DNA from: Alienimonas californiensis
GTDB taxonomy: Bacteria; Planctomycetota; Planctomycetia; Planctomycetales; Planctomycetaceae
Direction of reading: 5' to 3'
Assembly: GCF_007743815.1 (NCBI RefSeq)
Contig: NZ_CP036265.1
Coordinates: 1,080,501 to 1,144,500 of the forward strand
Length of the DNA: 64,000 nt
Part shown: one piece after another, positions 10,076-54,282 of the stretch
How positions within the stretch are numbered: the stretch's first letter is position 1
Layout: each line of letters opens with the position of its first letter
Made by a program: the position numbers and the translations under genes
Notes under the pieces: model-generated
The model's database searches: none
What the model was told of the DNA's origin: nothing
What the model saw: the letters and a program-made list of their open reading frames with translations, nothing else

Positions 10076-10154
10076 GTGAGCCCGGAGCGCAAGCTCCGGC
10101 CGTCGCCGCAGCCGGCTTTGGAACGCACGGCCGGAGCTCGCGCTCCGGGCTCAC
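10076..10154. repeat. Inverted pair of GTGAGCCCGGAGCGCAAG repeats
   Basis: The left arm, 10076-10103, begins GTGAGCCCGGAGCGCAAG and ends CTCCGGCCGT. The right arm, 10127-10154, is its reverse complement with one internal difference, and the loop is 23 bases. Each arm is itself a hairpin (CCGGAGC/GCTCCGG). A single arm recurs at 63909-63936 and a diverged pair at 40297-40357. It lies between the convergent SRPBCC gene and the kinase-PAS gene. Confidence 0.8.
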
Positions 10155-23126: not shown

Positions 23127-26021
23127 ATGTTCGGCCTCCCGCTCGCCGCCTCGTTCGCCTTGGCGTGCGCGGCGGATCCGTCCCCCGCGGCCGCCGACGT
23201 GGAGGGGCCGTCGGCGGCGGAGATCGCCGCGACGCTGACCGTCGTGCCCGGCCTGACGGTGGAGCTGGCCGCCGCGGAGCCGCTGGTCGTCGATCCGGTC
23301 GCCCTACGGTTCGACGAACGCGGCCGGGCGTGGGTCGTGGAGATGGGCGACTACCCCACCCCGCCGCCCGAGGGCTTTTCCGAGGAGAATCCGCCCCGCG
23401 GCCGAGTGCGGATCTTGGAGGACGCCGACGGCGACGGCACCTTCGACGCCGCCCTCACCTTCGCCGACCGCCTCGCCTTCCCCACCGGCGTGCAGCCGTG
23501 GAAAGGCGGCGCCTTCGTCACCCTCGCGGGCAAGGTGAGCTACTTCCCGGACACCGACCGGGACGACGTCGCCGACAGGGAGGAAGTCTGGTTCACCGGC
23601 TTCGCGGAGGAGAACGAACAGCTGCGGGCCAATCACCCGACGCTCGGCCCGGACGGTTGGATCTACGTCGGCAACGGCCTCCGCGGCGGCAAAATCGTGA
23701 AGGGGGAATCGAACCCAAGCCGGACGCATGCGTCCGGCTTAGGCGAGGATAAGGACGCTGAACCGCTGGACCTGTCCGGCCGCACGTTCGCCTTCGACCC
23801 GCACATTGGCGAAGCAAAGGTCGTGGCCGGCGCCGGGCAGTACGGGCTGAGCATCGACGCCTTCGGGAACCGCTTTTTCTGCGAGAACCGTAAACCGGTC
23901 CGACACGCGGTGTTGCCGGACTCGCTGACGGCGCTGAACCCGCACCTCGCCGTCGAATCCGCCGTGCACGACGTCGCCGCCTGGGGGCCGGACTCCAAGC
24001 TGTACCCGACGCAAAAGGCGTTCACCACGAGCCTCGCCCACGCCGGCCAATTCACCGCCGCCTGCGGGGTGTTGAAGCTGCCCCGCGGCGTGTTGACCAA
24101 AGAATATGAGAACAGCGTCTTCACCTGCGAGCCGACCGCCGGGCTGGTGCACCGGGAGGTTCTCGAACCGCAAGGAGCGACGTTCACCTCGAAGCCGGCC
24201 CGCGACGGGGTGGAGTTTCTCACGTCCGCCTCGCCCTGGTTCCGCCCGGTGGACCTCGCCGTCGGCCCGGACGGCAGTGTATATGTCGTCGACATGGCCC
24301 GGGCGGTGATCGAACACCCGCATTGGATGCCGGAGGAATTAAAAAACCGCCCGGACCTGCGATGGGGCGAAACCCGCGGCCGGCTGTGGCGGGTGCGGGC
24401 GGCGGGGGAGCCCCCCTGGCGGGCGGACGTTCTGGGGGCGGCGTCGCCTTCCGAACTGGCGGGGGCGCTGCACGAACCGGGCTGGGGCGGCGAGACCGCC
24501 CAGCGATTGCTCCACGAACGCCGCGACCCGGCCGCCGTCACGCCGGTTCGCGAGTCCAACAGAATCTATTGGGAGCATGAGGATTTATCGCGGGGGCTGG
24601 CGTACTTGGCCGCCGTCGGAGCGTTGACCGAAGGCGATGTGTTACACGCACTCGACGAAATGCCCGGACGAGCGGCGAGGATTGCCGCCGACGCCGGACT
24701 GATGACTCCCGCAGCGCTCGATGCGGCCGTCGCGGCGCTCAGCGAGTACGTCTGGGAAGGCCGAACCGCCTTCGACCTCTGCGTCGCCCTCGCCCCGCAC
24801 GCGGACGACCCGGCCGTGTTTGCGGCGCTGGTGGACGCGGCGGTTCAGTCCGACGATCCCTATCTGCACACCGCCGTGTTGGCCGGGGCCGGGCGGGCCG
24901 GGATGCCGACGCCCCTCACCGCGGCGCTGTGGCTCTCCGAGACGCCGGCGCCGCCGGACCTGTTGGCCCGCTCCGCCGAGGTCGCCGGGCGCCGGGGCGA
25001 GTTGACGGCGACGATGGGCATGGCCGTCGGGTCCGTCCTCGCCGATCGGGTCGTCCCTGAGAAGGCCGCGGCCGTGCTGCGGGGCCTCGACCGTGGCGCC
25101 GGCCCGGCACTGCGGCGGGAACTGGCGGCACTGGAGGCGGGGTACCGGGAGACGCTCGCCGCCGCGTTCGTGCAGCGGTCGGCCGCCACTGCGGATCGGG
25201 AGAACGACCTATTTCTGCTCGGCCTGCTGGAAGAAACCTGGCCGGAGCTGACGGCGGTCGCCGCGGAGGACCCGGACCCGGCGGTGCGGAGCGCCGCGGT
25301 CCGCCAGTTGGCCCGCACCGCCTCCCCCGCCGCGGCCGATCTGGTGCGCAACCTGCCCGCCGAAACGCCCGCCGTGCGGGCGGCGCTGCTGGAACTGGCC
25401 CTGACCGCCCCCGACCGGGCCGCGGCGCTGCTGACGTTGGTCGAAGACCGCGAACTGACCGCCGCGGCCGTCGGCCCCGCGGCGACGCGGCGACTAGTTC
25501 AATTCAATGACGAGGCGATCCGCACCCGGGCCGAGGCGGCGCTCTCCGGCGGCGGCGAGGACCGGGCGGCGGCACTGGCCCGCTATCAGTCGGCCCTCAC
25601 GATGGAGGGCGACGTGGCCCGCGGCCGCGCGGCGTTCGGGCGGGTTTGCGCGACCTGTCACGCGGTCGACGGCGTGGGCACGGCGGTCGGGGCGGACATC
25701 TCCGACACCTACAACCGCACCCCCGAGAGCCTGTTGACGAACATCCTCGACCCGAACCGGGCCGTGGACGTCGGGGGCTTCGCCTATACCGTCCTCACCG
25801 CCGACGGCCGCGTCCTCACCGGCCTGCTGACCAGCGAAACGGCCGGTTCGATCACCCTGCAGTCCCCCGGCGGCGAGACCGTCTCCCTACCCCGCGGCGA
25901 CCTGCTGGAACTCCGCAGCGAAGGCGTCTCGCTGATGCCCACCGGCCTGGAGGAACAGCTCACCCCGGAGCAGATGGCCGACCTCCTCGCGTTTTTAAAA
26001 GGCTGGCGGTACGCGGAGTGA
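23127..26021 (+). CDS. PVC-type membrane-bound dehydrogenase with cytochrome c, second copy
   Basis: 964 residues. A signal peptide (~1-22) is followed by the beta-propeller dehydrogenase region (~35-430, with ADGDGTFD calcium-loop segments and the NGLRGGK and DLSGRTFAFDP motifs of the family), HEAT-like helical repeats (~450-830), and the C-terminal cytochrome c with C841-A-T-C-H845, then LLTNILDPNRAV and MPTGLEEQLTP segments. Same plan as the 1213-residue protein at 89-3730, but shorter. A perfect palindrome at 23717-23740 is inserted in frame and encodes residues 197-205 (see finding). No start ambiguity is serious. Confidence 0.93.
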   Translation: MFGLPLAASFALACAADPSPAAADVEGPSAAEIAATLTVVPGLTVELAAAEPLVVDPVALRFDERGRAWVVEMGDYPTPPPEGFSEENPPRGRVRILEDADGDGTFDAALTFADRLAFPTGVQPWKGGAFVTLAGKVSYFPDTDRDDVADREEVWFTGFAEENEQLRANHPTLGPDGWIYVGNGLRGGKIVKGESNPSRTHASGLGEDKDAEPLDLSGRTFAFDPHIGEAKVVAGAGQYGLSIDAFGNRFFCENRKPVRHAVLPDSLTALNPHLAVESAVHDVAAWGPDSKLYPTQKAFTTSLAHAGQFTAACGVLKLPRGVLTKEYENSVFTCEPTAGLVHREVLEPQGATFTSKPARDGVEFLTSASPWFRPVDLAVGPDGSVYVVDMARAVIEHPHWMPEELKNRPDLRWGETRGRLWRVRAAGEPPWRADVLGAASPSELAGALHEPGWGGETAQRLLHERRDPAAVTPVRESNRIYWEHEDLSRGLAYLAAVGALTEGDVLHALDEMPGRAARIAADAGLMTPAALDAAVAALSEYVWEGRTAFDLCVALAPHADDPAVFAALVDAAVQSDDPYLHTAVLAGAGRAGMPTPLTAALWLSETPAPPDLLARSAEVAGRRGELTATMGMAVGSVLADRVVPEKAAAVLRGLDRGAGPALRRELAALEAGYRETLAAAFVQRSAATADRENDLFLLGLLEETWPELTAVAAEDPDPAVRSAAVRQLARTASPAAADLVRNLPAETPAVRAALLELALTAPDRAAALLTLVEDRELTAAAVGPAATRRLVQFNDEAIRTRAEAALSGGGEDRAAALARYQSALTMEGDVARGRAAFGRVCATCHAVDGVGTAVGADISDTYNRTPESLLTNILDPNRAVDVGGFAYTVLTADGRVLTGLLTSETAGSITLQSPGGETVSLPRGDLLELRSEGVSLMPTGLEEQLTPEQMADLLAFLKGWRYAE
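23717..23740. repeat. Perfect 24-bp palindrome inserted inside a coding region
   Basis: AAGCCGGACGCA followed by its exact reverse complement. The encoded peptide is P-S-R-T-H-A-S-G-L between a conserved GGKIVKGES and the conserved DLSGRTF segment of the PVC cytochrome. A close relative lies in intergenic DNA at 27123-27148 (same AAGCCGG ... CCGGCTTA arms). The frame is kept, as in Rickettsia palindromic elements. Confidence 0.9.
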
Positions 26022-26035
26022 CGGGCGTTTTTCTT

Positions 26036-26210
26036 CCCCCCTCTCCCTCAGGGAGAGGGGCCGGGGGTGAGGGTGACGCACGGTTCACCCGCCCCCGCTC
26101 TGTGCCGTGACGTCCCGGCCGACGGGAGAGGGAGCGGGCAGTGAACCGCAATCGGAAGTCACAGCCCCCTCACCCCCGGCCCCTCTCCCCCAAAAGGGGG
26201 CGAGGGGAGC
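26036..26210. repeat. Composite ~175-bp element, copy C (inverted)
   Basis: A full-length copy in the opposite orientation to A, B and D. It fills almost all of the gap between the convergent cytochrome (+) and APS reductase (-) genes. Both hairpins, the two complementary arms and the core landmarks (GTGAACCG, GTCACGGC, CCGTCGG, CGGTTCAC) are recognisable on the reverse strand. Confidence 0.85.
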
Positions 26211-26231
26211 AGAGGCGATTGAGCGCCCTGA

Positions 26232-27023: not shown

Positions 27024-27122
27024 GGCGGGCCTTTCGGAGGGGGGAGATCGGGCGGGGATAATAGGCGCCGGGGCGGTCCGAGGTGAACCGCGATCCGGCA
27101 ACGCCCCGCTCTCCCGCCGTTT

Positions 27123-27148
27123 AAGCCGGCCCCATGGGTCCGGCTTAG
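27123..27148. repeat. Near-perfect palindrome TAAGCCGG...CCGGCTTA
   Basis: A 26-base palindrome, TAAGCCGGCCCCA and its reverse complement with one mismatch pair, followed by GGCGGGG. It lies between the start of the cysH gene and the stop of the M28 peptidase gene, both on the minus strand, in the peptidase 3' region. Same family as the coding-sequence palindrome at 23717. Confidence 0.85.
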
Positions 27149-27162
27149 GCGGGGTCGCCCCC

Positions 27163-28503
27163 TCAGAACACGCTGAGCAACAGCACCTGGCTGAGCCGGA
27201 CCAGCCAGCTGCGTTCCTTCTCCGTCATCACGCCGCGTTCCAGCACGCCCTCGGTGACGCTTTTCGTCTGGGCGAGCGTCACCTTCTGCATCGTGCCGAA
27301 CCGGCGGCCCGTGGGGTTCTCCGGGCTGGCGGCCCGTTCCAGCAGCAGGCCGGTGATGCGGTTCACGGCCCGGGCCTCGTCCAGGTCCGGCGACGGGTTC
27401 GCCTCCCAGACGGGGGCCTCGGCGTCGTTGGCCGTGGTCACCGTGATCGCCAGGATCAGCGAGGCCACCCGGGCGGCCTTCTCCACGTTGAGGTTCTCCG
27501 GCGTGTCGGTGGGGCGGTGGTAGTCCTTGTGCTCGCCGGTGCTGAAGAACAGGAAGGGGATGTCGCGGTCGCGGAACGGGCCGTAATCGCTGCGGGTGCC
27601 GATCAGGTCGATGCCCAGCCGGGCCGCTTCCAGCCCCTCCGGCGTGCCGACGCGGTCGAGAACGCTTTTGAGGTGCGGGGCGTGCTCGCTGCCCATCACG
27701 AATACGGTAGGCAGGTCCAGGTCGCCCAGACTGCGGCCGATCATGTCCGCGACGAACACCGCCTTGAGTTGCCGCATCGTGGCGTCATCCTGCCCGCCGG
27801 TCAGCACGGCGGGGGGGTGGGCGGCGAACCAGCGGGAGCCGAACAGCATGCGCTCCTCCAGGTCGAACGCGACGAACAGCACGCTGCGGCGGGGGCCGTC
27901 GCCCTGTTTGGCGTCGTCGGCGAGGCGTTCGGCGGCCTCCATCAGCATCGCGGTACCGCTGGCGTTGTCGTCGGCGCCCGGATACAGCACCCCGCCCCGC
28001 ACGCCGAGGTGGTCGTAATGGGCGCCGATCATCACCACTTCCGCCTTCGCCGCCGGGTCCGAGCCCGGCAGCAGGGCCGCCACGTTCCGCCCGAACGGCC
28101 CGCCGTCCGGCCCGGCGATCGTCTGGAAGAAGCTCTTCCCCCCCGCTCCGCCGTCGCCGTCAGCCGGCGCGTTCCCGGGCGCAGCTGCCGGGGATGCCTC
28201 GAAGACCGGCTCCAGCCCCAGCGATTGGAAGTGAGCGGCGAGGTACTCCGCGGCGGCGTCCGCCCGGCCGCCGGGGCGACCGCCGCGGGCGGGGTCGGCG
28301 AGGAACTCGACGTGCGGCCGCAGATCGTCCGCCGTGATCCGCTGCGGGGTGATCTGCTCCGCGGCGACGACCGGCGGGGGCGTCTCGGCGGGGGCGTCCT
28401 GCCCCAGCGCCGCGGCGGACGGCAGGGCGAAGACCCAGACGGACGCGGCGATCAATCGCGCGCGGGTCGGTGAGGGACGAACGGGAACGGGCGGGAGCCG
28501 CAT
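27163..28503 (-). CDS. M28-family zinc aminopeptidase, exported
   Basis: 446 residues from the ATG at 28503 ([12 protein letters not shown], then a hydrophobic stretch and AALGQD signal cleavage); the frame is open to 29283 but that part is Arg/Gly-rich. Metal-binding motifs of M28: H162-Y-D164-H, D178-D-N-A-S-G, the Glu pair in [10 protein letters not shown] (~214-217), a Asp in ADMIG, and His in [12 protein letters not shown]-like insert sits around 90-140 (Gly/Ala/Pro/Asp-rich). Bacterial homologues release N-terminal amino acids from peptides. A Leu-rich helix ends the chain. It is divergent from the small Tyr-rich secreted protein. Confidence 0.92.
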
Positions 28504-51910: not shown

Positions 51911-53464
51911 ATGCTCGCCCGCTTCGCCTTCAGCTTCGCCCTGTTCCTGCCCGCAGGGGCCGTCGCGGACGACGGGGAGCAGAAACGCCCGCCGAACGTG
52001 GTGGTGATTATGGCGGACGACCTCGGGTACGGGGACGTCTCCTGCTACGGGGCGACGGCACTGGAAACGCCGCACATCGACGCCCTCGCGGACCGCGGCC
52101 AGCGGTTCACCAGCGGGTATTGCAGCGCCTCGACCTGCACCCCCACGCGGTTCAGCCTGCTGACCGGGATGTACGCCTTCCGTCAGAAGGGCACCGGCAT
52201 CGCCCCGCCGAACGCCGCCTCCCTCATTCAACCGGAGACAGTCACCGTCGCCGACCTGCTGAAACAGGCGAACTACGAAACGGCCGTCGTCGGCAAGTGG
52301 CACCTTGGCCTCGGCGAGCGCGGCGCCGGGCCGGACTGGAACGGCGATTTGAAGCCCGGCCCGCTGGAGATCGGCTTCGATCACGCCTTCCTGCTGCCCA
52401 CCACCAACGACCGCGTGCCGCAGGTCTACGTGCAGGATCGGCGGGTGCTGAACCTCGACCCCGCCGACCCGCTGTGGGTCGGCGCCAAAAAGCCGTCGCC
52501 GGAGCATCCCACCGGCATCACGCACCGGGACGAATTGAAGATGGACTGGTCCCACGGCCACAACGGCACGATTCATAACGGCATCAGCCGGATCGGCTTC
52601 TACACCGGCGGCCACGCGGCCCGCTTCCGGGACGAGGACCTCGCCGATCGCTGGGTCGCGGAGTCCGTCGCCTTTATGGAGACCCATCAGCAGGAGAGCC
52701 CGGACGACCCGTTCTTCCTGTTCTTCAGCTCCCACGACTTGCACGTGCCCCGCATGCCGCACGAGCGGTTCCAGGGGGCCACGTCGCTGGGGTTCCGCGG
52801 CGATTCGATCGTGCAGTTGGACTGGTGCGTCGGCGAACTGACCGCGGCGCTGGAGCGGCTGAGCCTGACGGAGGAGACGCTGGTCGTGTTCTGCTCCGAC
52901 AACGGCCCGGTGCTGGACGACGGGTACAAAGACGGGGCCGTCGAGCAGATCGGCGACCACCAGGCCGCCGGGCCGTATCGCGGGGGGAAATATAGCGTGT
53001 TCGAGGGCGGCGTGCGGACGCCGTTCATCACCTGCTGGCCGGGGACGATCGCACCGGGCGTCAGCGAGGCGGTCGTCTGCACGATCGACCTGCCGGCGAG
53101 TCTGGCGGCGCTGGCCGGCGTGGAGATTCCCGCGGGGGCCTGCCCGGACAGCGTGAACGTCGCCCCCGCCCTGCGGGGCGAGCCGGGGGCGACGGGTCGG
53201 GAAGAATTGGTCGTGCAGAACAACGGCAGCGCCTTCGCCCTGCGGCAGGGCCGCTGGAAACTGCACCGGCACGACGGCAAACGCACGCAGAACCTCGTGG
53301 TGGAGACGAAACTCGCCGCCACCCCAGTCCCGCGGCTGGCGCTGTTCGATCTGGAGACCGACCCGCGGGAGACGAACAACCTGATCGAGGAACGCCCGGA
53401 GATCGCCAACCAAATGGCGGAGCGACTGGAGGCATACCTCAGCGGCGGGAGAACTCAGCGGTAG
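51911..53464 (+). CDS. Secreted type I (formylglycine) sulfatase
   Basis: 517 residues from the ATG at 51911, with a signal peptide ending ..GAVAD. Metal site D36-D37 (MADDLGY), FGly motif C76-T-P-T-R80 (Cys type, modified by a formylglycine-generating enzyme), GKWHLG Lys/His, and DNG (~C-terminal metal residues). The enzyme hydrolyses sulfate esters, most likely of marine polysaccharides, fitting planctomycete biology; the exact glycan cannot be told. It also has FALRQGRWKLHRH and terminal LFDLETDPRETNNL family motifs. The frame is open 40 codons upstream without signal sequence. Confidence 0.95.
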   Translation: MLARFAFSFALFLPAGAVADDGEQKRPPNVVVIMADDLGYGDVSCYGATALETPHIDALADRGQRFTSGYCSASTCTPTRFSLLTGMYAFRQKGTGIAPPNAASLIQPETVTVADLLKQANYETAVVGKWHLGLGERGAGPDWNGDLKPGPLEIGFDHAFLLPTTNDRVPQVYVQDRRVLNLDPADPLWVGAKKPSPEHPTGITHRDELKMDWSHGHNGTIHNGISRIGFYTGGHAARFRDEDLADRWVAESVAFMETHQQESPDDPFFLFFSSHDLHVPRMPHERFQGATSLGFRGDSIVQLDWCVGELTAALERLSLTEETLVVFCSDNGPVLDDGYKDGAVEQIGDHQAAGPYRGGKYSVFEGGVRTPFITCWPGTIAPGVSEAVVCTIDLPASLAALAGVEIPAGACPDSVNVAPALRGEPGATGREELVVQNNGSAFALRQGRWKLHRHDGKRTQNLVVETKLAATPVPRLALFDLETDPRETNNLIEERPEIANQMAERLEAYLSGGRTQR

Positions 53465-53480
53465 TCCGCAGTCCGCGCAT

Positions 53481-53518
53481 GCGTCACGCCGAGGGGCCGC
53501 GGCCCCTCGGCGTGACGC
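53481..53518. repeat. Perfect 38-bp palindrome between convergent genes
   Basis: GCGTCACGCCGAGGGGCCG followed exactly by its reverse complement, a 19+19 base perfect palindrome with no loop. It lies 16 bases past the sulfatase stop (+) and 26 bases before the thioredoxin stop (-). Likely a bidirectional 3'-end signal, or a target of a mobile palindrome. Confidence 0.85.
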
Positions 53519-53544
53519 AGCGTTCGCAGCACAGTCTTGAGCCG

Positions 53545-54282
53545 TCAGCCGCCGAGGGCGTCGGCGACGGCGGCGTCGAGTTCGGCCCGCGGGCCCTCCC
53601 CGCCGCCGATGATGCGGGCGACCTCTTCGCCGTCCGCGTTGAACACCAGCAGGGTCGGCAGGGGCAGGCCGTCCGGGCCGGCCAGCGGGTCCCACTGCTC
53701 GCTCTCGCCGCCGTCCTCGGTGTAGACGTTCGTCAGTTCGCCGGCGCCGACCTCGGTGAGGAACGACTGCACGGCGTCCAGGTCCTTCTCGCTGTTGAAC
53801 GCCAGCGAGATGACCGTCAGCCCGTCCTCCTTGTGCTCGCGGGCCAGGGCGACGGTGTGCGGGAAGGCCTCGCGACAGGGGGCGCACCAGTCCGCCCACA
53901 TGTCCACCAGCACGGGGCCGTCCGCGGCTTCGATGAGGGACCGCAACTCCTCGTAGCTGACCGGCTTGGCGGTGACGGGCGGGCCGGCGGGGGCGGTTTC
54001 GTTCATGCCCTCCGCGTTCGCGCCCTCCGTGTTCATGCCCTCCGTGGTGGCGCCGGCTTCGTCGCCGTCCGGTTCGCCGTCCAGGTTCGCCGGGCCGACG
54101 GTGCCGGCGTCGCCGGGGTCGAGGGAGCGGTTCACCGCCCCGTCGGGGAACTCGCCGGTGCCCTCGGTCGCTTCCGCGGCCTCGTCGACGTAGGGCGACG
54201 TTCCCTCACTACAGCCGGTGAGGAGGAGCGGGCCGACGACGAACGCTGCGGCGAGGGTCGGAACAAAGGGGTAGCGGCGCAT
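53545..54282 (-). CDS. Thioredoxin-fold lipoprotein (TlpA/thioredoxin-like)
   Basis: 245 residues. Lipobox LLTG-C23 after a signal (MRRYPFVPTLAAAFVVGP), so a membrane-anchored lipoprotein. Residues ~24-105 are an acidic/Thr/Gly linker. A thioredoxin fold follows with the active site W-C-A-P-C (~133-137) and the usual cis-Pro (LPLPTLL). It probably reduces disulfides or aids cytochrome c assembly in the periplasm. It is next to the redoxin gene 54433-55056 on the same strand, with a hairpin-rich gap. Confidence 0.9.
   Translation of the reverse strand: MRRYPFVPTLAAAFVVGPLLLTGCSEGTSPYVDEAAEATEGTGEFPDGAVNRSLDPGDAGTVGPANLDGEPDGDEAGATTEGMNTEGANAEGMNETAPAGPPVTAKPVSYEELRSLIEAADGPVLVDMWADWCAPCREAFPHTVALAREHKEDGLTVISLAFNSEKDLDAVQSFLTEVGAGELTNVYTEDGGESEQWDPLAGPDGLPLPTLLVFNADGEEVARIIGGGEGPRAELDAAVADALGG

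Follow-up and report, generated by a model that had tools for sequence, protein, structure and literature searches.

REPs are found mainly 3' of open reading frames, where they supply stop codons, and sometimes lie in frame inside genes; Opitutus terrae, a member of the PVC superphylum, was reported to be the richest in intragenic REPs of the GTAG type (PMC3733652). In the same work, the Rickettsia palindromic elements RPE-4 and RPE-6 were assigned to the CGTC group of REPs, and RPE-1 was described as a longer palindromic insertion (PMC3733652). The present analysis concerns a stretch of 64,000 nucleotides of the Alienimonas californiensis genome (contig NZ_CP036265.1, positions 1,080,501 to 1,144,500), hereafter the window, in which a palindrome is located inside a cytochrome gene. 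This palindrome is very probably a copy of a dispersed REP-like repeat which entered a loop of the cytochrome after the split from the sister species and was tolerated in frame.

The closest likeness by behaviour is to the RPEs, which are also in-frame palindromes in unrelated protein genes and missing from orthologues. The unit found here is however 24–34 bp long while RPE-1 is longer, it does not display the CGTC tag of RPE-4 and RPE-6, and it lies inside a gene in one copy out of 49. With the REPs of the GTAG and CGTC superfamilies, as in O. terrae, it shares a palindrome size of 20–40 bp, a location mostly downstream of ORFs, the supply of stop codons and occasional in-frame copies. In contrast to REPs, it has no conserved tag and a near-perfect palindromic stem with a CATG centre, and no RAYT gene flanked by the element was found in the window genome. 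A planctomycete parallel with Rickettsia had been suggested in the first-pass annotation as being of interest for protein evolution. It holds for the behaviour, but since intragenic REPs of the PVC superphylum are already published (PMC3733652), it is not new in kind. What is new is an untagged planctomycete family with REP- and RPE-like behaviour.

The palindrome in the cytochrome gene

The host gene (23127–26021, plus strand) encodes a PVC-type haem-binding protein of 964 residues in a single uninterrupted ORF. The N-terminal domain matches TIGR02604 (residues 42–426) and DUF7133 (residues 32–425), and the C-terminal CxxCH haem-binding domain TIGR02603 is encoded at positions 25608–26000 (plus strand; residues 828–958). 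The presence of the latter indicates that the reading frame is intact 3' of the insert. The insert-bearing cytochrome, with its intact ORF and domain matches, is presumably made and working. The earlier description as a 'giant cytochrome gene' was correct for the PVC-type family, while 'giant' was generous, as 964 residues are few compared with the open frames of about 1,990 residues in relatives.

A perfect palindrome of 24 bp, AAGCCGGACGCATGCGTCCGGCTT, was confirmed at positions 23717–23740 (no strand assigned), and it is one of the two perfect palindromes of at least 16 bp in the window. It is read in frame as codons 197–205 of the ORF, giving the sequence (P)SRTHASGLG flanked by the segments GGKIVK and DLSGRTF, as originally noted. 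The palindrome forms the core of a full stem-loop of 34 positions (23712–23745, no strand assigned), which was detected by the covariance model R1 with an E-value of 4.9e-11 and a score of 53.9 bits. The element reads AACCCAAGCCGG...CCGGCTTAGGCG, and its outer stem pairs are imperfect. A search of Rfam with the element region matched no family. Two frames of the palindrome are free of stop codons (LSRTHASGLG and PKPDACVRLR), and the third one holds TAA/TAG. The second copy announced near position 27123 proved to be the same element and intergenic (27118–27151, no strand assigned), with a core at 27123–27146 containing one mismatched pair (AAGCCGGCCCCATGGGTCCGGCTT), and lies 16 bp past the stop codon of a minus-strand gene (27163–28455).

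The host domain was modelled by AlphaFold2 with a mean pLDDT of 78. The insert corresponds to residues 176–184 of the model, located between the strands 168–171 and 199–202, and falls within the lowest-confidence block, where pLDDT drops below 50 at residues 181–186. The insert occupies a hypervariable loop of the N-terminal domain, modelled with low confidence. The following course of events is proposed. The usual home of the repeat, which counts about 49 copies, is immediately downstream of genes. After the split from the sister species, one copy would have entered the cytochrome at a hypervariable loop that separates two strands of its N-terminal domain, and it probably survived there because the stop-free frame LSRTHASGLG joined the ORF and because the loop tolerates changes in length.

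Other palindromic sequences were noticed in the window. A perfect palindrome of 40 bp, TGCGTCACGCCGAGGGGCCGCGGCCCCTCGGCGTGACGCA, is located at 53480–53519 between the convergent genes 51911–53464 (plus strand) and 53545–54282 (minus strand). The intergenic inverted repeat CCCCTCTCCCTCAGGGAGAGGGGCCGGGGGTGAGGG... at 26033–26220 belongs to the CCCTCTCCC family, of which about 20 occurrences were counted in 460 kb, all of them outside genes.

The repeat family and its relation to RAYT genes

In the genome of 5.475 Mb, 28 sites were found within three mismatches of the palindrome, against none for the reversed control. Using a covariance model built from 30 copies together with relaxed-spacer patterns, the size of the family was estimated at about 49 copies. 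An extended-pattern search of the genome did not add any copy, and a 26-bp site at position 821753, initially counted as a copy, was dropped as a poor match. The family consensus, CGCCTAAGCCGGACGCATGCGTCCGGCTTAGGCG, is a stem-loop of 30–34 bp with a 15-bp stem and a CATG centre, and the inner stem defines the subfamilies ACGC/GCGT, AGCC/GGCT and AGGC/GCCT. The core of the cytochrome copy, AAGCCGGACGCATGCGTCCGGCTT, is identical to that of eight other copies in the genome. Covariation of the base pairs was evident: changes on both sides were counted in 33 cells, against 16.3 for shuffled data, and no shuffle reached this value.

The family also occurs elsewhere within the genus and, more sparsely, in three further genera belonging to the taxonomic family (G013, G021 and G010), while a covariance-model search of 35 other relatives did not detect it. 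A related element with a far longer stem, AAGCCTGACGCATGCGTCAGGCTT (GTCATACTAAGCC...GGCTTAGTATGAC), was observed in one of these genera (G013, locus L048, 1489–1534). Among 12 copies examined in the sister species, five are at a position shared with the window genome and seven are elsewhere, indicating that copies turn over. The copies at positions 1888951 and 2571030 of the window genome have some flanking bases in common (ATAACGCAACC and GATCGACGG), as expected if copying sometimes carries flanks along.

With 34 positions and about 49 copies, the element corresponds to the description of REPs as short palindromes of 20–40 bp with many extragenic copies. It could therefore be considered as a REP mobilised by RAYT, in other words a miniature, non-autonomous repeat of the IS200/IS605 type. 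Its REP-like size, its location at gene 3' ends and its supply of stop codons are all as in published REPs (PMC3733652), and at least five RAYT-like Y1_Tnp genes were found in the window genome (L091 4826–5419, L092 3694–4387, L093 3870–4588, L077 5379–5942 and L094 3805–4517). However, the cytochrome element does not flank the Y1_Tnp gene at any of the five loci. Each of these genes displays its own inverted REP-like palindrome at the flanks, so that five different palindromes and five apparent REPtrons were recognised. Moreover, the oriented alignment of 61 copies revealed neither a conserved GTAG nor a conserved CGTC tag, the flanks being symmetric (R-G-G-C-G). Taken with these observations, mobilisation by RAYT appears unlikely. 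The element behaves like a REP or an RPE, yet of the features examined for RAYT-associated REPs it lacks two, namely the tag and the flanked Y1 gene. A link by proximity was also considered, as two of the five Y1_Tnp genes lie 1–1.5 kb from a copy, and was rejected because these genes have their own palindromes and another gene stands between. No mobilising enzyme could be linked to the family at the five Y1_Tnp loci examined. A head-to-head pair of another REP-like repeat (GTGAGCCCGGAGCGCAAGCTCCGGCCGT followed by its inverted copy), similar to a BIME, was seen in the window at 10076–10154; the same repeat flanks the RAYT gene at L077.

Location of the copies at gene 3' ends

Genes were called with a codon-bias caller in about 436 kb of sequence surrounding the copies. 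As many as 35 of the 49 copies fall between −2 and +35 bp relative to the 3' end of a gene, compared with 17.6% of random extragenic positions (P 6e-17). Random positions are extragenic in only 14% of cases, whereas 48 of the 49 copies are extragenic or in a weak ORF, and the cytochrome copy is the sole one of the 49 in the window genome lying deep in a well-supported gene. The element supplies the stop codon (TAA or TAG) in about eight copies, and about eight copies are found between divergent genes. Downstream regions containing the element fold at −26.9 kcal/mol versus −15.8 kcal/mol for shuffled sequences. The extragenic copies may act as RNA hairpins at 3' ends, participating in the formation of the transcript end or in its stability. 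Like intrinsic terminators, they are stable GC-rich hairpins a few to tens of bases past the stop codon. In contrast to these, they have no U-tract, their stem sequence is conserved between sites, some copies are between divergent genes and one is inside an ORF. No T-run was found after the stem in the aligned flanks, and the copies are thus not canonical intrinsic terminators.

An explanation in which the whole family is a selected bidirectional terminator or 3'-end stabilising hairpin, with the in-gene copy serving to attenuate the cytochrome mRNA or to regulate it as an internal hairpin, would account for the enrichment near gene 3' ends and for the more stable folding of the element-bearing regions. 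It would also fit the five orthologous sites shared with the sister species, at which both partners have changed in six stem pairs without loss of pairing. These paired changes are nevertheless compatible both with selection on an RNA hairpin and with palindrome-directed template switching, as may occur in the repair of palindromes, and the data do not separate the two. Besides the missing T-run and the copies between divergent genes, the in-gene copy itself speaks against this explanation, as it lies in an otherwise intact, presumably translated ORF in which the hairpin would be melted by ribosomes. Terminator function as the account of the family and of its in-gene copy is considered improbable, and a dispersed repeat tolerated in frame is retained as the preferred reading.

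Probable gain in the cytochrome and recurrence in the sister species

The orthologue from the same genus (L017, an Alienimonas chondri-like sister which, by inference, is the same species as the A. chondri record L116) is 83% identical at the protein level and lacks the insert residues. The linker at the site is NPSAAKQADDAP in this orthologue and NPSRTHASGLGEDKDAEP in the window; over a wider stretch, the sister has GKIVLGEANPSAAKQADDAPLDLSGRTF and the window GKIVKGESNPSRTHASGLGEDKDAEPLDLSGRTF, with a net difference of 18 nt. In the aligned homologues from other genera of the family and the class, this segment is shorter still, and some distant homologues carry unrelated insertions a few residues beyond it. 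No orthologue encoding the same residues without the palindrome, the observation that the first-pass annotation had named as contrary to its proposal, was found among those aligned. Its expectation that about ten residues would be absent elsewhere was borne out for the absence and not for the size, the net gain being six residues. On parsimony, using the more distant homologues to polarise the change and one genome of the same genus for comparison, the insert would represent a lineage-specific gain of net six residues after the split from the sister species. The net 18 nt against an element of 24–34 bp shows that this was not a clean insertion, and the shortfall points to a loss of native linker or to a later indel. 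In the alignment with the sister, the cytochrome insert shows no target-site duplication.

That the residues are instead ancestral and were lost in the sister, the palindrome having arisen in place or by chance, is highly improbable. A weak alignment of the sister linker (CCGTCAGCGGCGAAG) with the right arm of the palindrome would favour it, but eight further copies in the genome have exactly the same 24-bp core, the segment is shorter still in homologues from other genera, and the sister has the same peptide in an unrelated protein. The palindrome was probably brought into the cytochrome gene by copying and not by mutation in place.

The unrelated protein is encoded by a gene of 630 codons in the sister species, designated as GTPase-like from the reading of a GGTNLGKS motif. 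It contains the same palindrome in frame and the same peptide SRTHASGLG (...DADPSRTHASGLGEERGG...). This insert is missing from 11 orthologues, consisting of that of the window genome (80% identical) and ten from relatives of the family and class. In addition, a third copy forms a C-terminal extension in an aroA-like protein of the sister (FERLSRTHASGLGAGDEEVTS; named from its C-terminal motif) and is absent at the corresponding site of the window genome. The same element is therefore present in unrelated genes across two species: the cytochrome gene, the GTPase-like gene and the 3' end of the aroA-like gene. A preference for one open frame (three of three in-frame cases) is not significant with n=3. 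The search for other in-gene copies proposed at the outset was thus successful in the sister genome, with the same frame and peptide, while in-frame copies are exceptional in the window genome (1 of 49).

The cytochrome insert offers a polarisable case outside Proteobacteria of repetitive extragenic DNA turned into protein sequence, with a sister devoid of the insert, and the same nine-residue peptide recurs in unrelated proteins. It makes two questions testable: whether such inserts are neutral padding of loops, and what moves palindromes that are flanked by no RAYT. As a tentative proposition, an untagged, RAYT-independent planctomycete family could be at once a selected 3'-end RNA hairpin and a repeated in-frame lengthener of proteins, and variable linkers may be landing sites shared by different repeats. 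The latter idea comes from a single GTPase-like gene, which has the present palindrome in the sister and GTGAGCCCGAAGCGCAAGCGAGG at the same place in the window genome. There (L145, G000:C1:4414454–4416316), GTGAGCCCGAAGCGCAAGCGAGG is a RAYT-type REP lying in frame at the site of the AAGCCGG-palindrome of the sister. It is a different palindrome, and it also flanks one RAYT gene of the window genome.
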